This document shows positions 37,050-50,597 of a stretch of DNA of 64,000 bases, piece by piece (the stretch's first letter is position 1; the number at the start of each line of letters is the position of its first letter). Under the pieces are notes generated by a model. It had not been told where the DNA came from, did no database searches, and saw only the letters and a list, made by a program, of their open reading frames with translations. The stretch is from Yoonia sp. (GTDB lineage: Bacteria > Pseudomonadota > Alphaproteobacteria > Rhodobacterales > Rhodobacteraceae), in contig NZ_JACUUJ010000006.1 in assembly GCF_014859355.1 (NCBI RefSeq), positions 1 to 64,000 of the forward strand. Reading direction: 5' to 3'. The position numbers and the translations under genes were made by a program.

Positions 37050-37934
37050 ATGAATGCAGGCTGGACGGCGACGCGGGCATGGCTTCTCATGCTGCCGCTT
37101 CTTATCGTCATGCTGTCCGTGATCGGCTGGCCGTTCTTTGACACGGTGCGGCTGTCCTTCACCGATGCGCGGCTGGTCGGCACCGGCGGCGACTTTGTCG
37201 GGTTCGCGAATTACGAACGTCTTTTCTCCAGCCGCGCGTTCCGGCGCGCATTTCTTGTCACGACGCAATTCGCGGTCGTCTCGGTCCTTGTCGAGGTGGT
37301 GCTGGGTGTGCTGGTTGCGCTTCTTCTTTATCAGAACTTCCGGGGGCGCAACGTTCTGCGTGCGCTTTTGATCTTGCCATGGGCGCTGCCCACGGTCGTC
37401 AATGCCCTTCTCTGGCGGCTTATCTACAACCCCGAATACGGCGCGCTGAACGCGTTGCTGGTGCAGATCGGGCTGCTTGACGCCTATCGGTCGTGGCTTG
37501 GCGATCCGAACAGTGCGCTTGTTGCGCTGATCGTCGCGGATGCCTGGAAAAACTTTCCGCTCGTGGCGCTGATCTCGCTCGCTGCGCTGCACGCGGTGCC
37601 GCATGACATCAAGGCGGCGGCCATCGTCGATGGGGCGGGCGCCCTTGCGCGTTTCCGCTTCGTGATCCTGCCCTATCTTGCCGGGCCACTGATGGTGGCC
37701 CTGGTGTTGCGCACGATCGAGGCGTTCAAGGTCTTTGACATCATCTGGATCATGACGCGCGGCGGTCCGGCCAATAGCACGCGCACGCTGTCGATCCTCG
37801 TCTATCAAGAGGCGTTTTCATTCCAGCGGGCAGGATCCGGGGCATCGCTCGCCCTCATTGTCACACTGGCGATCACGGTGCTCGCGGTCGTCTATGTGGC
37901 GCTGATCCGTAAATCGGCGGGGGCGCAGTTCTGA
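37050..37934 (+). CDS. Sugar ABC transporter permease (MalF/UgpA type)
   Basis: An inner-membrane permease of about 294 residues with six hydrophobic segments and the EAA loop AAAIVDGAGALARFRFVILPYLAGPL that docks the ATPase. It begins MNAGWTATRAWLLMLPLLIVMLSVIGWPFFDTVRLSFTDARLVG, the usual first-helix pattern. The ORF-track start at 36822 lies in the binding-protein gene and is rejected. There is a gap of 82 nt after the binding protein, then a TGATG overlap with the second permease. FrlN-like position in the operon. Confidence 0.92.
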   Translation: MNAGWTATRAWLLMLPLLIVMLSVIGWPFFDTVRLSFTDARLVGTGGDFVGFANYERLFSSRAFRRAFLVTTQFAVVSVLVEVVLGVLVALLLYQNFRGRNVLRALLILPWALPTVVNALLWRLIYNPEYGALNALLVQIGLLDAYRSWLGDPNSALVALIVADAWKNFPLVALISLAALHAVPHDIKAAAIVDGAGALARFRFVILPYLAGPLMVALVLRTIEAFKVFDIIWIMTRGGPANSTRTLSILVYQEAFSFQRAGSGASLALIVTLAITVLAVVYVALIRKSAGAQF

Positions 37935-38779
37935 TGGAGCGGCAAAACCTTGGCTTCACAATCTTCCTTTATGTCTGCGCGGCGCTGCTTGCGTTGATGA
38001 TCCTCGCGCCCTTCGCCTGGCTTTTCATCATGAGCATCTCTTCGACCAACGACCTTGTTTCGAAGCCGCTGCGCTGGTGGCCGGTCGAAACCGACTGGTC
38101 GCGCTACCGCATCCTTACTGACTTTACGCCCAATTCCCACGGTGCCGCCCTGATGTCGGCGCTTGGCAATAGCATCAAGATCGCTGCGATCGCGACAGTG
38201 GCTGCGCTTATGGTCTCTGTGCCGGCGGGATGGGCCGTTTCGCGCACGCCAGCGGTCGGCTGGTCGCTATGGCTGGTTATCGGCACTTACATGTTGCCAC
38301 CGGTCGCATTGGCGGTGCCGCTCTATATGGGCCTCGCCGGGCTTGGGATGCTGAACACCAAGATCGGTCTGGCGATCGTGTATCTGACGGTTCTTGCGCC
38401 ATTCACCACATGGCTTTTGAAATCCGGCTTCGATCCGATCCCGCGCGATCTTGAAAAGGCCGCCGCGATCGACGGCGCGCGGCTTGACCAGATGTTGAGG
38501 ATCATCATCCTGCCATTGGCCGCGCCGGTGATCGGCACGGCGGCACTCTTTGCCTATCTGCTCGCCTGGGACGAATTCTTTTATGCGCTTCTTTTCACCT
38601 CGGACTATCGCGCCAAGACTGTCACCGTTGCCATCGCCGATCTTGCCGGTGGCAGGGTGGCCGATTACGGGCTGATCGCAACGGCAGGGGTCATCGCCGC
38701 GCTGCCGCCGGTGATCTTTGGCCTCGTCATGCAGCGAATGCTGATTTCCGGCCTGACGACAGGCGGCGTGAAAGGATGA
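37934..38779 (+). CDS. Sugar ABC transporter permease (MalG/UgpE type)
   Basis: The second permease half, 281 residues and six helices. The EAA motif is EKAAAIDGARLDQMLRIIILPLAAPVIGTAALF, and the first helix is ALLALMILAPFAWLFIMSISSTNDLV, typical of the MalG subfamily. The start overlaps the previous stop by TGATG, and its own stop overlaps the SIS-domain gene by ATGA. FrlM-like position in the operon. Confidence 0.92.
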   Translation: MERQNLGFTIFLYVCAALLALMILAPFAWLFIMSISSTNDLVSKPLRWWPVETDWSRYRILTDFTPNSHGAALMSALGNSIKIAAIATVAALMVSVPAGWAVSRTPAVGWSLWLVIGTYMLPPVALAVPLYMGLAGLGMLNTKIGLAIVYLTVLAPFTTWLLKSGFDPIPRDLEKAAAIDGARLDQMLRIIILPLAAPVIGTAALFAYLLAWDEFFYALLFTSDYRAKTVTVAIADLAGGRVADYGLIATAGVIAALPPVIFGLVMQRMLISGLTTGGVKG

Positions 38780-39798
38780 AACCACCGATGCCAAACGCAA
38801 AACCACCCGGCCTTGTCGCGATCGAACGGGAAATGGCCCGGCAAGGCAAAGACGCGCTCGCCAGCTTTTCCGATGTCGCAAAGCGCGCGGGTGCTGTCGC
38901 CGCATCGATCCGGCAGACGGGCCGGCTTCTTCTGCTTGGGATGGGCGCGTCACACGGGCTGAACCGCGCGGTCGCGCCGCTTTTTCGCGCCCATGGCGTG
39001 GATGCCCTGGCGCTGCCGCTGTCCGAGCAACTCGACCAGCCGCTTGCATGCAATGGGCGGACGGTGATCGTCACGTCGCAGTCGGGCGAAAGCATCGAGG
39101 TGGTGCGCTGGCTTGCACTGGCGCACCCCGGCACGGATGTCTTTGGGCTGACGATGGACGCCGGTTCCACGCTCGCGCGGTCATTACCCTGCATGATTGG
39201 CGCGGGCGGGGTCGAAACCGGGTTCGCCGCGACCCGCAGCGCCTTTGTTGGCGTGGCGATCTACGCGGCGGTCCTGTCGGCGCTGGGCACCGATCCGGCG
39301 CCATTTCTGCGGGTCTTGCGCGCACCCACAGAGCCAGACATCGCGGACGCGGTGGCGGCACTTGCGGGCGTGCGCACCATCGTGACCTCGGCGCGCCGGC
39401 TTCAGGGGCTGGCCGAGGTGCTGGCGCTCGGTTTGACGGAACTCGCCCGGCTGCCCTGTTTCGCGCTGGAAGGCGGCCAGTTCAGGCACGGGCCGATGGA
39501 GATGCTGGGGCCGGATGTCGGCACCGTGTTCCTGCGCGGGGCGGACGTGACCGGCGATCGTGTGCGCGGTCTTGCCGAAACGGTCGCTGTGACGGGCGCG
39601 CCGACCGTTGTCCTTGATGCCTCGGGGCGTGCGCCCGCGACTGGGGCGGTCACAGTCGTTGCCGGGCAGCATGAAGGCATCGCCGCGCTTGCCGCCCTCC
39701 TTCCTGTTGCGCAGCGACTGATGATCGGCTGCGCGATCATGCGCGTTGCCGACCTTGGAACGCCTGTGCGCACGCAGAAGATCACCCGAACCGAATGA
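38776..39798 (+). CDS. SIS-domain sugar isomerase/deglycase (FrlB/GlmS-C-like)
   Basis: A cytoplasmic tandem-SIS protein of 340 residues, like the isomerase half of GlmS, AgaS and fructosamine deglycases. Phosphosugar-binding loops appear as LLLLGMGASHGLNRAVAPLF and VIVTSQSGESIEVVRWL in SIS1, and TIVTSARRLQGLAEVLALGLTELARLPCFALEGGQFRHGPMEML in SIS2, where the late Glu and His are the usual catalytic positions. With a PfkB kinase next door, the best guess is cleavage of a phosphorylated fructosamine into glucose 6-phosphate and an amine; amino-sugar isomerase is the alternative. It overlaps both neighbours by ATGA. Confidence 0.88.
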   Translation: MKPPMPNAKPPGLVAIEREMARQGKDALASFSDVAKRAGAVAASIRQTGRLLLLGMGASHGLNRAVAPLFRAHGVDALALPLSEQLDQPLACNGRTVIVTSQSGESIEVVRWLALAHPGTDVFGLTMDAGSTLARSLPCMIGAGGVETGFAATRSAFVGVAIYAAVLSALGTDPAPFLRVLRAPTEPDIADAVAALAGVRTIVTSARRLQGLAEVLALGLTELARLPCFALEGGQFRHGPMEMLGPDVGTVFLRGADVTGDRVRGLAETVAVTGAPTVVLDASGRAPATGAVTVVAGQHEGIAALAALLPVAQRLMIGCAIMRVADLGTPVRTQKITRTE

Positions 39799-40739
39799 CC
39801 CAGCCCACACCCCTTGCCGTCGTCGGCAACGTCAACATAGATCTGGTCATGGGGCCAGTCGCGCCTTGGCCGCAGCCGGGCACCGAAATCATCGTGGACG
39901 GCACCGACCTGAGATACGGCGGCGCGGCTGGCAATGTTGCCCTGACCTGGCGTGCGCTTGGCCACGCTTTCCAGATCGCCGCGAACACTGGCCGCGACAC
40001 CTTTGGCGATTGGCTGCGCGACGGCTTTGCGCCGCAGTCCGATGGCTGGCCGGTGTCCGAAGCGGCAACCACGATATCGGTCGGCCTGACACATCCCGAC
40101 AGCGAAAGGACATTCTTTACCACGCGTGGACATGTCGCCGAACTGACCTGGCCCGAAGTGCGCGCGATGATTGACTGGCCCCGGCTGTCTGGCGGCGGGC
40201 TTCTTGTCTGCGGATCTTTCATTACCGATGATCTGGCCGGGGACTACGACGCGCTTTTCGCCCACGCGCGCAGCCACGGCGCCCGCATCGCGCTTGATAC
40301 CGGCTGGCCCGCGCAGGGCTGGACAGCCGCGACAGTCAGGCGCGTGCGGCGCTGGCTTGGGCAGTGCGACTATCTTTTGCTGAACGAGGTCGAAACACGT
40401 GCCCTTTCCGGCGGTCACGGCCCAGAGCATGCGCCGTCTGTGTTGCTGCCGTTCATGCCCGAAGGCGCGATCGTCGTCGTCAAGTGCGGTGCCGACGGTG
40501 TTGTTGCGGGTAGCGGCACAGGCGCGGTGCTTAAGGTCCCCGCACCGATCGTCACGGCGGCCGACACGATCGGGGCCGGCGACATCTTTAACGCCGCCTT
40601 TCTTGCCGCGCAGGCCCAGCGACAACCGCTTGCGGCCTGTCTGGAATCGGGCGTGCGCACGGCATCTATCGCGATATCGACCTCTCCGCGCCGCTATGAC
40701 ACCGAAGGGGCTACGCCCGTTAAAGGAGCCCCCGCATGA
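39795..40739 (+). CDS. PfkB family carbohydrate kinase (FrlD-like)
   Basis: A ribokinase-fold kinase of 314 residues. The N-terminal LAVVGNVNIDLVMGPVAPWPQPGTEIIVDGTDLRYGGAAGNVALTWRALG contains the sugar-binding GG motif; the C-terminal ATP/anion-hole signature DTIGAGDIFNAAFLAAQ contains the catalytic Asp. A SIS-domain partner and an ABC importer point to phosphorylation of an imported ketosamine or sugar. The ATGA overlaps on both sides show tight translational coupling. The substrate is not provable from motifs. Confidence 0.9.
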   Translation: MTQPTPLAVVGNVNIDLVMGPVAPWPQPGTEIIVDGTDLRYGGAAGNVALTWRALGHAFQIAANTGRDTFGDWLRDGFAPQSDGWPVSEAATTISVGLTHPDSERTFFTTRGHVAELTWPEVRAMIDWPRLSGGGLLVCGSFITDDLAGDYDALFAHARSHGARIALDTGWPAQGWTAATVRRVRRWLGQCDYLLLNEVETRALSGGHGPEHAPSVLLPFMPEGAIVVVKCGADGVVAGSGTGAVLKVPAPIVTAADTIGAGDIFNAAFLAAQAQRQPLAACLESGVRTASIAISTSPRRYDTEGATPVKGAPA

Positions 40740-41803
40740 GCACGCTTGATCTGATCGGGGTCAGCAAGTCCTTTGGCCGCACCGAGGTTCTGAAGACCAT
40801 CGACATCTCGCTCGCCAGCGGCGAGTTTCTTGTGCTGCTCGGCGCCTCGGGCTGCGGCAAGTCAACGATCATGAACATCATCGCGGGGCTTCTGTCGCCC
40901 ACGTCTGGGGAAATCAGGATCGACGGCAAGCGCATCAACGAAGTTCACCCCAAGAACCGTGACATTGCGATGGTTTTCCAGTCCTATGCGCTCTATCCGA
41001 ACCTGACGGTGGAAAGGAACATCGGGTTCGGCCTGGAAATGCGCGGCGTGCCAAAGACCGAACGGCAAGCTGCCGTCCTGAAGGTCGCCCGCATCCTAAA
41101 GATTGACGGGATGTTGGGCCGCAAACCCGCAGAGCTGTCGGGCGGCCAGCGCCAGCGCGTTGCCATCGGCCGGGCACTGGTCAGGGAACCAAAGATTTTT
41201 CTCTTTGACGAGCCGCTCTCGAACCTTGACGCCAAGCTTCGGATGGAGATGCGGGCGGAATTGAAGCGGTTGCACCGGCTGCTGGGGACAACCGTTGTCT
41301 ATGTGACGCACGACCAGATCGAGGCGATGACCCTTGCCACGCGGATCGCCGTCATGCGCGATGGCCGGATCGATCAGATCGGCACGCCCGAGGAAATCTA
41401 TGACCGCCCCGCGACGGCGTTCGTTGCGGAATTCGTCGGCGCCCCCCCCATGAACATGATCAACGCAATACTGGACGCGAACGGCCTGCGGCTAGAGGAA
41501 TCGGGCCAGCGCGTGGCACTGACCATCGGGGCCGATGCGCCGCGCGAGGTAATTCTCGGCCTGCGACCAGAGGATCTTCACCTTGCCGATGCGTCAGAGG
41601 AACACGCCATCGCTGCGACCGTGGATTTTGCCGAACCGACCGGCCCCACTTTGATTGTGTTCGCCCGCCACGGCGGAAATCCGCTTGTCGCAAGCCTGCC
41701 GCCGCATTTGCAGATCGCGCCGGACAGCCAGATCCGGCTCACTTTTTCTCGGAAGAACATGCACATATTCGACAGGGCCTCCGGCAACCGGATCCAAACT
41801 TGA
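40736..41803 (+). CDS. Sugar ABC transporter ATP-binding protein (UgpC/MsmK type)
   Basis: The ATPase of the importer, 355 residues. Walker A is GASGCGKST, the Q-loop VFQSYALYPNLTVERNIGFGLEMRG, the signature LSGGQRQRVAIGRALV, Walker B IFLFDEPLSNLDAKLRMEMRAELK and the switch VTHDQIEAM. The C-terminal regulatory TOBE/OB domain starts after RPATAFVAEFVGAPPMNMI. It closes the operon and overlaps the kinase by ATGA. A dedicated ATPase in the same operon resembles the frl layout in which the ATPase gene follows the catabolic genes. Confidence 0.94.
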   Translation: MSTLDLIGVSKSFGRTEVLKTIDISLASGEFLVLLGASGCGKSTIMNIIAGLLSPTSGEIRIDGKRINEVHPKNRDIAMVFQSYALYPNLTVERNIGFGLEMRGVPKTERQAAVLKVARILKIDGMLGRKPAELSGGQRQRVAIGRALVREPKIFLFDEPLSNLDAKLRMEMRAELKRLHRLLGTTVVYVTHDQIEAMTLATRIAVMRDGRIDQIGTPEEIYDRPATAFVAEFVGAPPMNMINAILDANGLRLEESGQRVALTIGADAPREVILGLRPEDLHLADASEEHAIAATVDFAEPTGPTLIVFARHGGNPLVASLPPHLQIAPDSQIRLTFSRKNMHIFDRASGNRIQT

Positions 41804-41908: not shown

Positions 41909-42520
41909 ATGATGGTCAAGAAATTCGGAAAACTCTATTTGGCCGCGGCAATCTGCCTGAGCCTTTCGGCTTGCGCAGAGACGCCCGTCAGCCGTGCGCT
42001 GGGTCTGGACCCGGGCGTGGGTGCCCAAGCGGGTCCGAGCGGACGTTCGGTCGACGTATCAAGGGACTTTTCGGTATATCTAACCGGATACACCTACTGG
42101 GACAACACGCCCCCGGGATCAGCCGCAATCGCCCGTCCGGTCCTGCGCCAACAGGCAGGCGGCACCGGCACCTGGCAAAGCCCGATCACCATCGCCGTGG
42201 GCCACAGCATCGTCAATGGCCGCCAGACGCTTGATTATCCAGCGGGCACACGGTTCTATCTGCCGCGTCTGCGCAAATACGCCATTGTCGAAGATGTCTG
42301 CGGCGACGGCCCGGCCCCGCAAGGCGGGCCGTGCCACACCGGGCACAATGGTCACCCCTGGCTTGACATCTGGCTTGGCGGCAAGACCATGACACCACAG
42401 GAATCGGATGCCTGCGCGCGCCGCATCACCGCCGTTCAGACCGCGATCATCAATCCCCCGCGCGACTTGCCGGTTCATGCGGGCGAAATTGCAACAGGTG
42501 GCTGTCAGGTATTTCTCTGA
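41909..42520 (+). CDS. Putative outer-membrane lipoprotein with double-psi-barrel (3D/RlpA-like) domain
   Basis: An exported lipoprotein of about 203 residues; MMVKKFGKLYLAAAICLSLSAC ends in a lipobox with the cysteine at about residue 22. AAAGGA lies 5 nt upstream of the ATG at 41909. The core YPAGTRFYLPRLRKYAIVEDVCGDGPAPQGGPCHTGHNGHPWLDIWLGG recalls 3D-domain or RlpA-like double-psi barrels in which an Asp carries out glycan cleavage. It converges on the polysaccharide synthase fusion with an 18-nt gap, so a role at the cell wall in that system is possible. The domain call is by eye and moderate. Confidence 0.75.
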   Translation: MMVKKFGKLYLAAAICLSLSACAETPVSRALGLDPGVGAQAGPSGRSVDVSRDFSVYLTGYTYWDNTPPGSAAIARPVLRQQAGGTGTWQSPITIAVGHSIVNGRQTLDYPAGTRFYLPRLRKYAIVEDVCGDGPAPQGGPCHTGHNGHPWLDIWLGGKTMTPQESDACARRITAVQTAIINPPRDLPVHAGEIATGGCQVFL

Positions 42521-42538: not shown

Positions 42539-45500
42539 CTATGCTGCCGGCTTGCCGATTCTGCCACGGCGGATAAGTTTACCCCAGCCAGCAATGCGGC
42601 CGACCAGAGCATGGCCCACCGCCCGATATATGGTGATGTAAAGAAGCGGCCGGTAAATCAGCCGCTGGAACGGCACGAGCAGCACCAGCCAAAAGTTTTC
42701 GCGCCTCTCGAACCCGAAGGCAACCAGCAAAACAACAAGATCCAGAACCGGAAGCGCCAGCCATCCGGCGATGATGGCCAAAGACGCCCCACTTCTTTCC
42801 AAGGGGACACCCTGAACAAAGTCAAGCGCAAGGTTGATCAGCACGCCCAGAAAGACCGCGTCGGCCATGGGCGCCAGAAGGCCAAGCATGATACCAGTCA
42901 ACCAGAGATCCGGGATCGAAAAAAATCCGATCCCGCGCGCCGTCTTTGCCGCGCGCCGGTGTTTCCATGCGGTCTGCATCATTCCAAAGCTCCAGCGCAG
43001 CCTCTGCTTCATGAAAGCCGCTAGCGATTCGGGTGCATCCGTGATCGAAAAAGCGCACGGCTCGAATACGACGCGGTAGCCCGCCCTTTGTATCGCGACC
43101 GTCAGATCGGCATCCTCGGTGATCGTATCGGACGAATATAGCCCGACCCCGCGCACCGCCTCGGCGCGCCAGGCCCCGATTGCCCCCGGCACAACGAGCA
43201 TCGCGTTCAGTCGCTCGGCTGCACGGCGGTCGATATTCTGCGCTGCAATGTATTCAAGCGCCTGCAACCGCGCCAGCAGGCCCCGACGATTACCAACCTT
43301 GACGTTGCCCGCGACCGCGCCGATCTGCGGGTCCGCGAAATGCCCCAACAGCTTGCTCACCGCTTCAGGATGCAGCAGCGTGTCGGCATCGACAGCCACC
43401 ACCACCTCGGTCTCGATCTTGGTATAGGCGGCATTGAGCGCCTGGCATTTGCCGCCGTTTTCCTGCCGGATCAGCCGCACGCGCGGGTCATTGCCAAAGG
43501 CCTGTTCGACCGCCGCAGCAGTGCCATCGGTCGATCCGTCATCGATGACGATGACGCACAGGTCGGGATAGTCAGAGGCAAGCGCCGCCGCGATCCCGTC
43601 AACGATTACAAGCTCCTCGTTGTAGGCTGGAATGGTGACCGTCACGCGCGGCGGCGGTTCTGGCAGACTAACGGGATGCTGCCGCCGAAGCAGCGCAAGA
43701 AAAAGCACGAACAGCGACCGGGCGACACCATAGCAGACCGCGGCCCAAAAAACCCAGACCAGCAGGTGACCAAAGGCAGCAGCGGTGGCAAAAGATGCGC
43801 GGTCCAATAGCCTGAACTTGTCCGTGACAAGCGGCATCACCTCATCGCGGGACAGGCCGAGGAAGTCCGAGAGCAGGACAAACCGGTACCCCTCGGCCAT
43901 CAGCCGGTCGATCAGCATCGGCACTGCGGCGACGGTCGCGGCGCGATCGCCACCGGCGTCGTGCATGACGATGACCTCTCCTGCGCCCATCTTCTTTTGT
44001 GTCATCACAAAATCAACGATTCCGTTCGCGGTCATGCCTTCCCAGTCGCGTGGCACGATGTCGGCACCGGCCACCATGTAGCCTGCATTCTCGAAAAGCC
44101 TTTGCTGCGCCGCCTCACCCTCTGTCAGGGGGCCTTCGCTGCGTCCGTAGGGTGTTCTTATCAGATAGGTCGTGCGCCCCGTGACACTGGCAAGCAACCG
44201 CTGGAGCGCGTTCAGTTCAATCTGTGACCGGCGCGGCCCCATATCTTCACCCTCCGGGTGGAAAAACGTGTGCGAACCAACCTCGTGCCCGTCACTGACC
44301 ATGCGGCGGACGATATCAGGGTATTTCACCATGTTGCTGCCGATGACAAAAAAAGTTGCCGAAACATTCTTCGCCTTCAGCGCGTCGAGGATCGCCGTGG
44401 TATAGGCCGGATCAGGCCCATCGTCGAATGTCAGCGCAACAACTTTTTCGTCAACGCCGCCATAGCGTTCAACAGTGGCCGGACGCGGCACACGATCGTA
44501 GATTTCGCCATTGATAAGCCCGGTCGCGGGGTCGGTGAAGAACCGCCGCTGCCCGGTGACCGACGACAGGATAATCTTGCGGAAGGGTCCGTCGCCAACA
44601 TAACTGACATAATCGGGGAAGCTGACCGTTTCCAGCGCACCGGCGCGCGGCGCCTCAAGGCCGTGCCGGAACAGCGACCAGGCGGCCGGATCCTCATAAC
44701 CAACCTGCCACAGAACGACGCCCGCAACGGGCCTTTGCACCAGGGTGACCAGTTGGTTGTGCAGCGAGACGGCATCGAGAATCCAGATCTCGGTCTCATC
44801 GCCGTCATCAGTTGTATAGGTCGCACGGGTGTTCAGCGATCCTTCCTCTACCGTGATGAATGATGTGTGCTGCGCGATGCGGCGCATCGCCTCTGCAAAG
44901 GGCAGGCGCGTCGGTTCGGGGTCGCCCTCTGCCCATAAAAAGGCGAAAGATCCAAGCGCGAACCGGAGCTTTTCGGGCCCTACCGCGGCGACCACATCGG
45001 CAAGCAGCGTTTCAAACCAGTCCTGTGACGCGATCGGGCTTGGCGGCCTGCCGGTTTCGGGTGTGCGAAACGCCTGCACAAGAACCGAATCGACGGCCCC
45101 GACCAGATCGGCGTCGCGCCAAAGCCCCCTATCGGCTTCGGTGACAAGGCAGCTTGTGACACCGGGCGGCAGCGCCGCATCCAACGCCCCCAACAACGCA
45201 CGCAGTCCCGCAAGATGTTGGGGATCGACCTGTTGCGGATAGATGCAAACTCCCGCATAGGGGCCGCCCGCGACTTTCGATATCAGTGCCGCGACGATGC
45301 GCGCGCGGACTTCGCCATGATCAAGCGACGCCGCATCAACCGCTTCTGGCGCAGGCAGCGGCAGCAGCGCCACGAGTTCGAGGTTCACCGCAGGTGTCAC
45401 GCGCTTGAGATCGCGCAAATAGGCATCTGTTCCGCTCTCGGCAAGCCAGTCTACCGTCTGGGACGTGATGTCGATCGTCAGCCATTCCGCCAGGACGCCG

Positions 45501-45898
45501 TTAAGACCGCCGCAGGCGCGGGAAAGGGTTGGAAATGCCCAGTCTGGCCAGACGCGCAGATAGGCAAAGCTTGGAATGTGCGCAATATCAGGCAGCAGTT
45601 TGGTGGCGGCGACCGGTGCGCCGGTGCATGTCGCAGCCACCGGCGCCGGGCCGGGTTCCGCCACGCCATCGTTGACGAAGGCCCCCCCCCGGATCAGATC
45701 AAGCTTTTCGTTCTCCGGCAGGATATCTACGTAGTAGACGCCAAGTGCAAAGGACGACAGCCAGGCCAGACAGAGCATACCCGTCAGAACACCGAGGATC
45801 CTGAGCTTCCGGCCCCGACGATGCGAAGGATCAAGAAAAACGGGATTGCGCATACGCGAGCGCTTTCTCGCAGCCCTTCGCACCTTCCCATCCGCCAT
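42539..45898 (-). CDS. GH18-like/polysaccharide deacetylase/GT2 synthase fusion
   Basis: A 1119-residue inner-membrane protein. Order: membrane helix at 33-55; an exported GH18-like domain at about 100-430 in which the DxxDxE catalytic site has become AGVCIYPQQ (215-223); a NodB deacetylase at about 480-690 with all motifs (TFDDGP 490-495, SHTFFH 542-547, RTPYG 581-585, PRDW 616-619, MHDAGG 645-650); helices near 705-738; a processive GT2 domain at about 750-990 with IDDGS, DADT (837-840), TEDAD (927-931) and QRLRW (965-969); and C-terminal helices. It should polymerise and partly deacetylate a chitin- or PNAG-like glycan. The start at 45898 has AGGA upstream. A G9 tract lies in codons 70-73. 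Confidence 0.9.
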   Translation of the reverse strand: MADGKVRRAARKRSRMRNPVFLDPSHRRGRKLRILGVLTGMLCLAWLSSFALGVYYVDILPENEKLDLIRGGAFVNDGVAEPGPAPVAATCTGAPVAATKLLPDIAHIPSFAYLRVWPDWAFPTLSRACGGLNGVLAEWLTIDITSQTVDWLAESGTDAYLRDLKRVTPAVNLELVALLPLPAPEAVDAASLDHGEVRARIVAALISKVAGGPYAGVCIYPQQVDPQHLAGLRALLGALDAALPPGVTSCLVTEADRGLWRDADLVGAVDSVLVQAFRTPETGRPPSPIASQDWFETLLADVVAAVGPEKLRFALGSFAFLWAEGDPEPTRLPFAEAMRRIAQHTSFITVEEGSLNTRATYTTDDGDETEIWILDAVSLHNQLVTLVQRPVAGVVLWQVGYEDPAAWSLFRHGLEAPRAGALETVSFPDYVSYVGDGPFRKIILSSVTGQRRFFTDPATGLINGEIYDRVPRPATVERYGGVDEKVVALTFDDGPDPAYTTAILDALKAKNVSATFFVIGSNMVKYPDIVRRMVSDGHEVGSHTFFHPEGEDMGPRRSQIELNALQRLLASVTGRTTYLIRTPYGRSEGPLTEGEAAQQRLFENAGYMVAGADIVPRDWEGMTANGIVDFVMTQKKMGAGEVIVMHDAGGDRAATVAAVPMLIDRLMAEGYRFVLLSDFLGLSRDEVMPLVTDKFRLLDRASFATAAAFGHLLVWVFWAAVCYGVARSLFVLFLALLRRQHPVSLPEPPPRVTVTIPAYNEELVIVDGIAAALASDYPDLCVIVIDDGSTDGTAAAVEQAFGNDPRVRLIRQENGGKCQALNAAYTKIETEVVVAVDADTLLHPEAVSKLLGHFADPQIGAVAGNVKVGNRRGLLARLQALEYIAAQNIDRRAAERLNAMLVVPGAIGAWRAEAVRGVGLYSSDTITEDADLTVAIQRAGYRVVFEPCAFSITDAPESLAAFMKQRLRWSFGMMQTAWKHRRAAKTARGIGFFSIPDLWLTGIMLGLLAPMADAVFLGVLINLALDFVQGVPLERSGASLAIIAGWLALPVLDLVVLLVAFGFERRENFWLVLLVPFQRLIYRPLLYITIYRAVGHALVGRIAGWGKLIRRGRIGKPAA

Positions 45899-46061
45899 AT
45901 CGGTTCCTGCTGTTTGCCAGCGCGGTCAATTGATCGCTGTGCACGATCTTATTTATGCTATAGGCTGAGGCTTCGACGTCAAGCCGACGAATTGGCGCTG
46001 CCGGGCGTTCCGCAATGCGCGGCAGGGCGGATTCGGGACGGGCAAAAACCTGAGTGAGTAT
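45899..46061. promoter_or_regulatory. Divergent promoter region of the polysaccharide locus
   Basis: 163 nt between the fusion gene and the DUF3131 gene. It must hold promoters for both. It contains CGATCTTATTTATGCTATAGGCTGAGG, with TATGCTATAGG as a possible -10 region, but no clear operator could be seen. Confidence 0.4.
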
Positions 46062-48467
46062 ATGCGGATCGACCGAAGAAATTTCCTGCGGCTGGTCACA
46101 TCACCGTTGCTTGTGCCCGCCTTGCCTGTTCCGGCAGGCGCCGATGCACCGACGGATGCTGTTTTCATCATCATCGAAGGTATCGGGGCGACGACGCCGG
46201 TTGACCTCTTGCAGCGCTGGGTCGCGCCGTTTCTTGCCGCCAAAATCCCGTTGGCCGTGATCCCCAACCTGGAATCCGACCCAGCCGCTGCGCTAATTGA
46301 AGAGCTTCGCCAGATATTTGCAACCTCTCCGGACCTGACAGAACCGGTGCTGTCGCTTCCCGGTCTTTCTGAACTGCCCCACTATTTTCAGCGGCGAACA
46401 GCCAGCGACGCCTTGCAGCGCATGCGCGGATTGCTTGAAAACGCAGCTGGCGCGCCGCCGTCCTTGCCGGTGACAATCGCGACAAACGCCCCGCTCCTGT
46501 CCAATTTTGATGCCCTGCGCTGTCTTGGTATCCGCAATGTCCTGACCCTCTCGGCGGCGCAGTCGGTGTCCTCGGCGGGTTGCGCCGAACGCGTGGTCTG
46601 CCTGCGGGGCGGCCAGCGCATGGTGGTGGCTGATGTGGCCAACCCCACCCCCTGGATCGAGGGCACCTTTGCCGCGCCGGGCTGGCGGCAGATTGTCTTT
46701 TCGTTGGCCGGAATCGAAAATCTGCCAGCCCCCGATGTCAGATTGCGCGCGCAGCGCGCCGCTGACGCCATCGGTCGCATGCTGAACTCAGGCCGGCACT
46801 TCGCTGCGCTTCCGCGCGACCACGCGCTGTGGTTCGGCGATGACCAGATGCGCTTTGTCGCGGTTCGGATCGCGCCCGGAACAGCCGCGACGGCAGCAGC
46901 GATGACGACGATCAAGGATACACTTCTGGCGCTCGGAATCACCGTAACCGACACCGCGCCACCCGATATTGCGACTGCAACCGACCTTGTGCTTTTGCCC
47001 GGCGCCGGGCACGCGTTTGATGACCGCGGGCGTTTCATCCGTGGCGAAACTGCGCTGTCGCACGCCGCCGACCTGACGCGCCACCCTAACCTGATGCGCG
47101 ATGCCATCATCACCATCAAACCACAGGATTACGCAACGGTCGCGGCCCGCAAGGCGACCCTCGACACGCTGCGCGCGGTCCAGCAATTGCCGGGGACGCG
47201 GTTCGTCGATATGCCAGCGTTCGTCGCGGCAACGGTCACCCCTGATCCGGTCTTTGACCTCCTGCGCGAGACCCGCCGCGACAGCAAGGACGCATCAGAA
47301 GACCCCGAGGCGCTGACCCATGACGAACTCTTGGCCGATGCCCGTCATGCCTGGACCTACTTCGACCGCTTCACAGTCGCCGCCACGGGGCTTTGCGTTG
47401 ATACCGTGGATGTGCAGGTCGGCTATACGTGGCTGCATCGCGAACTGACAATGTGGGATTTCGGCAGCCTGATTTCGGCTGTCATGGCGGCCCATGAACT
47501 GGGGCTGATCCCCGACACGGAATTCATCGCGCGGTCCGCGCTTTTGGTCGGGGCGCTGCCGGTTGCCCGTATCGGTGGTTTGATGCTCCCGAGCGAGGTG
47601 ATTTCCGCGGATACTACGGCTGCGCTGTCCTCTGATTTCAATGCTTGCGATACGGGCCGGCTCTTGAATGTGCTGCGTGCGTTTGACGCCCATCCGCTGA
47701 TCCGGGGCATTGCAGCGGACAAGATCGCGCGCTGGGATCTGGACGGCGTCGTCGTCGATGGCCACGTTCATTCCGTGGTGAAGGGGCGACTGGTCGATCG
47801 TTTCCGTTCGCAATGCGCGCATTACACCGCGCTCGCGTTCAGGTCGCGCGGCATAGAGGCCGCATCCCCCTATGAGGTGGCGGACGCAGATTCAAAAACA
47901 GACCGCGAGATGCAGCTTCTTCAGTCTCTTATCGGCCTTGATCCACTTGGGGCCGAGCCACTGCTGCTGGAGGCGCTGGAAATTGGGCTGTCGGAACCGT
48001 CGGCCATGCTCGCCGACGTGCTGTTTGGCGCACAACGGCGCGAGTACGAAAGCACCGGCGCCCTCACAAGCATGTCAGAGGCACCGATCAACCGGGAACC
48101 CTGGTTCACCTACCAGGGGCTGAACATCGCATCTTCCGAAGAACGCTGGGTGGTGAACGCCACCTCGGCTAATCCCCGCTTTGCCACGCCGGCCTTCCGG
48201 CGCGAGATCCGGCTGGTCAATACCAAAGCCGCCTATCTTTGGGCCGCGACCCGGCCGAGCGCCTATTCCACCCTGCTTGCCAGACATGTGCGCGACCGCG
48301 CGCGCCTTGATGGCATCGGCTTTTCCCCCGGGGTCTTTGTGGCCACCGGACAGGCGATGCCGGGCTATTCCGACGTCAATACCAACGGTATCGTCCTTGA
48401 GGCGATCGCCTATCTTTTGCGCGGGCGCATGCCACGCAAGGACCTGGTGCCACTGCGGCAGCCATGA
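46062..48467 (+). CDS. DUF3131 protein with Tat signal and NodB-like pseudo-domain
   Basis: An 801-residue exported protein. MRIDRRNFLRLVTSPLLVPALPVPAGADA is a Tat-type signal (RRNFLRL). Residues about 30-380 look like a NodB-fold deacetylase homologue (AVFIIIEGIGATTPVDLLQRWVAPFLAAKIPLAVIPNLESD) without the metal-binding motifs. From about 420 a DUF3131 glycosidase-like domain begins, with ADARHAWTYFDRFTVAATGLCVDTVD and GYTWLHRELTMWDFGSLISAVMAAHELGLI, a pattern seen in alpha/alpha toroid enzymes. It is divergent from the synthase fusion across a 163-nt gap, so the two are probably co-regulated. It may trim or process the exported glycan, an inference. Confidence 0.85.
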   Translation: MRIDRRNFLRLVTSPLLVPALPVPAGADAPTDAVFIIIEGIGATTPVDLLQRWVAPFLAAKIPLAVIPNLESDPAAALIEELRQIFATSPDLTEPVLSLPGLSELPHYFQRRTASDALQRMRGLLENAAGAPPSLPVTIATNAPLLSNFDALRCLGIRNVLTLSAAQSVSSAGCAERVVCLRGGQRMVVADVANPTPWIEGTFAAPGWRQIVFSLAGIENLPAPDVRLRAQRAADAIGRMLNSGRHFAALPRDHALWFGDDQMRFVAVRIAPGTAATAAAMTTIKDTLLALGITVTDTAPPDIATATDLVLLPGAGHAFDDRGRFIRGETALSHAADLTRHPNLMRDAIITIKPQDYATVAARKATLDTLRAVQQLPGTRFVDMPAFVAATVTPDPVFDLLRETRRDSKDASEDPEALTHDELLADARHAWTYFDRFTVAATGLCVDTVDVQVGYTWLHRELTMWDFGSLISAVMAAHELGLIPDTEFIARSALLVGALPVARIGGLMLPSEVISADTTAALSSDFNACDTGRLLNVLRAFDAHPLIRGIAADKIARWDLDGVVVDGHVHSVVKGRLVDRFRSQCAHYTALAFRSRGIEAASPYEVADADSKTDREMQLLQSLIGLDPLGAEPLLLEALEIGLSEPSAMLADVLFGAQRREYESTGALTSMSEAPINREPWFTYQGLNIASSEERWVVNATSANPRFATPAFRREIRLVNTKAAYLWAATRPSAYSTLLARHVRDRARLDGIGFSPGVFVATGQAMPGYSDVNTNGIVLEAIAYLLRGRMPRKDLVPLRQP

Positions 48468-49949: not shown

Positions 49950-50597
49950 CTAGAAATTAAAGCTGACGCCCAAGTTGACCGCATTGGTGATCACATCGGT
50001 TTCAAGCGTGCCGCCCGTGTCCAGATCAGCGGTGTTTGATGAATAGGTGCCTTTGTATTCACCAAAAACAGACCACCGGTCATTGATCGGGTAACTTGCA
50101 CCTGCAATCACAGTCGCGGCTGGCCCGGTCAGCTGATATCCAAAGGTTTCGGACGTTCCATTCGTCACCTCGACATGCGGAATCGCCACACCCAGCCCGC
50201 CACCAACATAGGGGCTGATTTGACCAAAGGCACTTGGCCAGCGACGGTAGGCATTAACGGTCAACGTATTCAACCCGTCGGTCATTTCCAGCACGGTATA
50301 TCCCGGCGGCAATTCGCCCGGCTTGGGGTATATTTTATTATGTGCGAAATCGAGCCCGAAACCAAAACCGCTTTCCCGCCATTTGGTCGCGCGAATGCCA
50401 TAATAGGGTGGCGCATCACCTGAACGACCTTCCCAAGCAACGGAAAAATCACCGTCCGGGATGGTGCTATCGCCACGGACCGAAACATCTGACGGATTTG
50501 CCGTTTGCACACCGCCATAAAAGCTAAGCTCGACTTCTGCGATGGCGGGTGCTGTCGCAGCCAGGAGCATCACAAATGCAATCGTCGCGCGTTTCAT
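49950..50597 (-). CDS. Outer membrane beta-barrel protein
   Basis: A 215-residue protein with the signal peptide MKRATIAFVMLLAATAPAIAE. The mature sequence alternates short hydrophobic strands with Gly/Asn turns, as in LSFYGGVQTA, YYGIRATKWRESGFGFGLDFAHN, SPYVGGGLGVAIPH, WSVFGEYKGTYSS, and ends in NLGVSFNF, a typical C-terminal aromatic barrel strand recognised by the BAM complex. It probably has eight strands (OmpA/OmpW-like lipid-accessory barrel). Function unknown. It is divergent from petA with a 415-nt gap. Confidence 0.85.
   Translation of the reverse strand: MKRATIAFVMLLAATAPAIAEVELSFYGGVQTANPSDVSVRGDSTIPDGDFSVAWEGRSGDAPPYYGIRATKWRESGFGFGLDFAHNKIYPKPGELPPGYTVLEMTDGLNTLTVNAYRRWPSAFGQISPYVGGGLGVAIPHVEVTNGTSETFGYQLTGPAATVIAGASYPINDRWSVFGEYKGTYSSNTADLDTGGTLETDVITNAVNLGVSFNF

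Follow-up and report, generated by a model that had tools for sequence, protein, structure and literature searches.

Our analysis of a 64,000-nucleotide stretch of a Rhodobacteraceae draft genome (2.98 Mb in 99 contigs, with Defluviimonas as its nearest named relatives; the whole stretch is called the window here) points to a compact synthase-dependent exopolysaccharide system, in which a DUF3131 protein would replace a GH18 domain as the periplasmic enzyme that cuts or transglycosylates a PNAG- or chitin-like polymer. We favour this reading with moderate confidence. It concerns two divergent genes separated by a 163-bp gap, one for a fusion synthase and the other for the DUF3131 protein, and a lipoprotein gene that converges on the fusion gene with an 18-bp gap (Table 1).

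Table 1. Genes and protein features of the locus (window coordinates)
Feature	Coordinates	Strand	Basis
Fusion synthase, 1119 aa, single frame	42539-45898	-	ORF list, Pfam, motifs
N-terminal TM anchor, residues ~32-60	45719-45805	-	Hydropathy
GH18-like exported domain, residues ~100-415, putative pseudo-enzyme	44654-45601	-	PDB profile search, motif
NodB/CE4 deacetylase, residues 482-680, metal and catalytic motifs intact	43859-44455	-	Pfam, motifs
Processive GT2, residues 747-988, nearest PgaC/IcaA, D/DAD/TED/QRLRW intact	42935-43660	-	Pfam, motifs
C-terminal TM helices after GT2, residues ~990-1059	42722-42931	-	Hydropathy
DUF3131 protein, 801 aa	46062-48467	+	ORF, Pfam
Tat-type signal DRRNFLRL	46062-46145	+	Alignment of relatives, Pfam
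Two degenerate NodB/DUF2334-like halves	46158-47261	+	Comparison with rhizobial relatives
DUF3131 domain, predicted (alpha/alpha)6 fold, SGL superfamily; conserved acids D530, E632, E673	47337-48425	+	Pfam, model, HMM-HMM
Lipoprotein, 202 aa, without known family	41912-42520	+	ORF, Pfam

The fusion synthase and its surroundings

Profile searches and hydropathy give the order of the fusion as a TM helix, a GH18-type domain, a CE4 domain, further TM helices, a processive GT2 and C-terminal TM helices. The first-pass annotation had described a pseudo-glycosidase, a NodB deacetylase and a GT2 in one 1119-residue protein, with a Tat-signal DUF3131 gene divergent from it and a lipoprotein gene convergent on it, and the open reading frames, profiles, coordinates and strands all agree with that description. 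Its claim that the deacetylase and GT2 motifs are whole is likewise borne out: those of the CE4 domain (TFDDGP 490, HTFFH 543, RTPY 581, DIVPRDW 613 and IVMHD 643; Pfam Polysacc_deac_1, residues 482-587, 1e-32) and of the GT2 (DDGS 786, DADT 837, TED 927 and QRLRW 965; Pfam Glyco_tranf_2_3, residues 750-972, 5e-35) are all intact in the fusion and invariant among its relatives. The family closest to the GT2 is PgaC/IcaA, with a score of 187 bits that lies far under that family's cut-off of 422. If the N terminus is inside, as we take it to be, the GH18 and CE4 domains would be periplasmic and the GT2 cytoplasmic.

The N-terminal domain is a relative of GH18 in a profile search against the PDB (chitinase 5jh8, 1e-34; YdhD, 1e-30; YaaH). 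The catalytic DxE of strand 4 (motif DGxDxDxE) has become YxQ in the window (GVCIYPQ, residue 216 on), and the domain looks catalytically dead. An artefactual fusion frame caused by a sequencing error, named beforehand as an outcome that would overturn the first-pass reading, can be set aside, since nearly all of 39 sampled fusion loci encode the same three domains without a break in the frame; full-length fusions are present in several bacterial families and also on plasmids.

Beside the lipoprotein gene, at 37934-41803, are genes for a sugar ABC transporter permease, a MalK-like ATPase, a SIS-domain protein and a PfkB kinase, and a Defluviimonas locus (L041) has flanking genes that are similar in size to these. 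A small outer-membrane beta-barrel gene (OMP_b-brl) is found nearby at 49950-50597; it is no obvious polysaccharide exporter, and no outer-membrane exporter was seen adjoining the window locus, which counts against the proposed system. The lipoprotein probably serves as an accessory component of the envelope. Its gene is common to most chromosomal Rhodobacteraceae loci, in variable orientation, and was not found at the Hyphomicrobiaceae loci. By eye, part of its sequence (GTRFYLPRLRKYAIVEDVCGDG...WLDIWLGG) is like that of a 3D/MltA-type double-psi barrel; Pfam, a PDB profile search and HMM-HMM comparison with 19 MltA proteins gave this no support, and the predicted structure has a pLDDT of 35.

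The DUF3131 protein and its fold family

Residues 426-788 of the DUF3131 protein match Pfam DUF3131 (PF11329; 3e-57, 194.5 bits against a cut-off of 20.3, model positions 2-367), which makes it a member of that nearly unstudied family, for which we found no function described in the open-access literature. Both arginines of its Tat-type signal are invariant in 16 relatives, four of which match Pfam TAT_signal weakly. The two N-terminal halves have lost the Asp pair and the HxxxH-type motif that are present in rhizobial relatives.

HMM-HMM comparison of DUF3131 with cyclic glucan synthases gives 97% probability and an E-value of 1.5e-10 (1.1e-9 when repeated with canonical DUF3131s only). In the AlphaFold model the DUF3131 domain is confident (mostly pLDDT >85) and the N-terminal half poor, and the best 18 Foldseek matches, with EeSGL1 on top (3e-9), are all SGL-superfamily chains, comprising beta-1,2-glucanases, cyclic-glucan synthases and related putative glucoamylases. 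By its predicted fold and detectable homology, DUF3131 is thus a member of the SGL superfamily (beta-1,2-glucanase/cyclic-glucan-synthase, (alpha/alpha)6). It is like the known families GH144, GH162, GH189 and GH192-194 (PMC12102758, PMC10834661) in its (alpha/alpha)6 fold and in its homology to GH189, which is significant in the N-terminal half only; it is unlike them in being just 8-14% identical to them in structural alignments and in probably having a different substrate. The signature of the superfamily is a conserved general acid Glu with Phe/Tyr (PMC12102758), and the catalytic half of DUF3131 has no significant alignment in which to place it.

Of the acids, D530 and E673 occur in all 45 DUF3131 sequences aligned and E632 in 43. 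Because the catalytic half fails to align significantly with GH189, these three are candidate catalytic acids only. Spacing alone would equate E1356, E1400 and E1442 of GH189 (PMC10834661) with positions 586, 632 and 673 of DUF3131; the alignment there is not significant, and we treat the correspondence as a lead. At position 586 canonical DUF3131s have the conserved Glu of a GYEQYAA motif, which is mostly Ala, Arg or Gly in the fusion-linked and rhizobial proteins, so that the fusion-linked ones could be inactive themselves.

Most of the canonical DUF3131 loci that we retrieved adjoin a membrane GT2 synthase gene, as in the window. They differ from it in having two or three short DUF3131s, another type of GT2 and no deacetylase that we could see, and in the presence of E586. 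A Klebsiella block, for example, holds a cellulose synthase, three DUF3131s and OpgC (PMC12974863).

GH18 state and DUF3131 across fusion loci

We compared 39 fusion loci that have a GH18-type domain (a non-exhaustive sample, with neighbours scored within ~6-10 kb). DxE is kept in 16 of the 17 fusions without a DUF3131 neighbour; these 16 come from sphingomonads and further alphaproteobacteria, from one genome that shares their phylum but not their class, and from a Deinococcus plasmid and a Prevotella replicon. It is kept in none of the 22 fusions with DUF3131 (21, and one with an IS-associated truncated remnant), among which a disrupted gene, that of L047, has WxE with the Glu retained. A whole-genome search of 11 DUF3131-less genomes at 1e-20 found no DUF3131 elsewhere in them. 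The sole dead GH18 without DUF3131 (L064, SxP) lies in a run of three genes on one strand (L064:5301-11345): first the dead-GH18 fusion, next a Poly_export gene (Wza-like) and then a separate chitinase-type GH18 gene with an intact FDGIDIDWEYP.

The deacetylase shows a parallel pattern. At three rhizobial loci (L081, L083 and L084) the GT2 is unfused and no CE4-like gene was found near it, and DUF3131 is part of a ~940-aa DUF2334/NodB-like-DUF3131 protein that keeps VDDLR and HGWxH, so its deacetylase, metal ligands included, is apparently intact; the protein may be viewed as a PgaB analogue assembled from other parts. In the Rhodobacteraceae, where CE4 is fused to the GT2, the matching region of the DUF3131 protein has lost both motifs. 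From the GH18 and deacetylase patterns together, all of these locus types appear to have a single polymerase, a single deacetylase and a single enzyme that cleaves the glycan, any second copy being dead. The coupling of dead GH18 to DUF3131 is more informative than the CE4-GT2 fusion itself.

In a tree built on the CE4-GT2 part, with the GH18 and DUF3131 trait columns left out, each of the two states changes at least two times, and the Hyphomicrobiaceae (L048 and L049) group beside L064, apart from the Rhodobacteraceae; an AU test does not reject a tree that puts all DUF3131-bearing loci in one clade (p 0.10). The balance between GH18 and DUF3131 thus reflects no more than one or two evolutionary events, and lineage could account for it. 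With so few events, significance cannot be claimed for the correlation once phylogeny is corrected for, and an independent-contrast test of GH18 loss against DUF3131 has too few events to work with. That the pattern may be a single event would suit a DUF3131 that works in this system without catalysis, by binding the polymer or as a scaffold, with the GH18 decay unrelated to it, as would the Ala or Arg that mostly fills the E586 column of the fusion-linked proteins and the degeneracy of their N-terminal halves. We regard this as unlikely, in view of the conservation of E632 and E673 across all DUF3131s and of L064, whose dead GH18 likewise lies beside a hydrolase, the separate intact GH18. It is decidedly unlikely that DUF3131 is a GH189-like retaining transglycosylase which cyclises or caps the polymer to give short cyclic amino-sugar oligomers and no matrix polymer; its nearest sequence relatives are the cyclisation domains of cyclic beta-1,2-glucan synthases and canonical DUF3131s mostly adjoin other GT2 synthase genes, but the top Foldseek match, EeSGL1, is a hydrolase and the nucleophile assignment is not significant.

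Seven of the 121 family genomes contain the full-length fusion, and the long DUF3131 is present in those seven and no others, every time as its neighbour, in tandem or divergent; an eighth (G013) has a match to the GT2 half only and is without DUF3131. This co-occurrence and constant adjacency support the first-pass inference that the genes act together, and the scattering of the two genes over unrelated loci, which would have spoken against it, is not seen in these 121 genomes. The fusion and DUF3131 form a conserved gene set, whose adjacency is kept between loci with fusions <40% identical and in several gene orders, and this variation in order (tandem or divergent) argues for selection and not recent common descent alone. 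The idea that chance or horizontal transfer brought the two together and that each acts on its own would fit the patchiness of the cassette, which is rare in the genus (3/57 genomes, one fragmentary and one with an internal stop codon) and often plasmid-borne, but is made very improbable by that lasting adjacency and by the 4-bp overlap of the fusion and DUF3131 frames in the plasmids of S. indolifex and Sulfitobacter sp. DSM 110093.

In Sulfitobacter and Limimaricola the pair is plasmid-borne and in tandem. All five Sulfitobacter plasmid loci that were examined (L079, L080, L140, L141 and L142) have a DUF995 gene upstream of the fusion, and its product is a possible extra component. On two Sulfitobacter plasmids (L080 and L143) DUF3131 is truncated beside IS21 and IS256 elements; the L080 fusion is likewise split in two frames, and L143 has no remaining fusion.

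A proposed mechanism and its relation to known systems

Motifs and topology suggest that the GT2 would polymerise an N-acetylhexosamine polymer (PNAG- or chitin-like) and thread it through the inner membrane, and that the CE4 domain of the same chain would partly de-acetylate the polymer on its emergence. The dead GH18 domain may still hold the chain as a lectin-like guide. The Tat-exported DUF3131, a putative (alpha/alpha)6 glycosidase/transglycosylase, would then cut or rejoin the chain as the fused GH18 does elsewhere, a step to which its fold, its conserved acids and the complementary occurrence of DUF3131 and intact GH18 point. As the chain-cutting part of the fusion, its GH18 domain, appears dead by mutation, the neighbouring DUF3131 probably took over the cutting; it would have displaced GH18, and its own N-terminal deacetylase-like halves would have decayed because CE4 comes from the synthase. 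Synthase-dependent operons each hold a polymer-degrading enzyme, for which there is evidence of periplasmic clearing (PMC8829089). In most fusions that role presumably falls to the fused GH18, and here it would have passed to DUF3131. GH18 enzymes require an N-acetyl group at the cut site, so that, speculatively, strong de-acetylation of the product would give the advantage to an enzyme that brings its own carboxylates.

More tentatively, DUF3131 may found a new SGL family of glycosidases/transglycosylases for partner membrane GT2s, which displaced the fused GH18 non-orthologously and acts on a de-acetylated amino-sugar polymer. It speaks against the favoured reading that known SGL enzymes work on beta-1,2-glucan and not on amino-sugar polymers. 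The linkages of the polymer would be beta-1,4 (chitin-like) to judge by the GH18 of sister systems, but beta-1,6 to judge by the GT2, which is nearest to PgaC.

The first-pass view that fusing these jobs is unusual does not hold, since CE4-GT2 fusions are known both in MatB and in Gram-negatives. Streptomyces MatB is a CE4-GT2 fusion for PNAG synthesis with an extracellular CE4 and an intracellular GT2 (PMC5972031), and GT-deacetylase (GT-PgaB) fusions have been noted in Gram-negatives without PgaA and PgaD (PMC7112194). By its domains and hydropathy the window fusion is of the MatB type, with CE4 and a processive GT2 TM-linked on one chain and, as predicted, the topology proposed for MatB (PMC5972031), and Streptomyces plasmid matches align to fusion residues 486-1118. 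MatB as described differs in having two domains and no GH18, no DUF3131 partner is mentioned, and MatA of the MatAB system has no known domain (PMC5972031). PgaABCD and IcaADBC are like the window in combining a PgaC-type GT2, a CE4 deacetylase and a polymer-cleaving domain; in PgaB, however, the deacetylase protein itself has the hydrolase as its C-terminal domain, where the window has a dead GH18 and a separate DUF3131 protein. None of PgaA, PgaB and PgaD was found among the flanking genes examined and the PgaC cut-off is missed, which leaves the locus outside PgaABCD.

Our search of the open-access literature turned up no paper that deals with a GH18-CE4-GT2 protein, with what DUF3131 does, or with the coupling of the two. 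The placement of DUF3131 in the SGL superfamily, the complementarity of GH18 and DUF3131, and the rhizobial DUF3131 protein with an apparently intact deacetylase beside an unfused GT2 are new here. That placement, together with a position where the hydrolase is missing, gives DUF3131 a concrete assay, a substrate class and a first testable function. The finding also bears on whether a polymer-cutting enzyme is obligatory in synthase-dependent systems. GT-deacetylase fusions led to the suggestion that it may not be essential in all Gram-negatives (PMC7112194); our observations suggest that the cutting enzyme can be there all along, whether in a GH18 domain or in an adjacent protein from another family.
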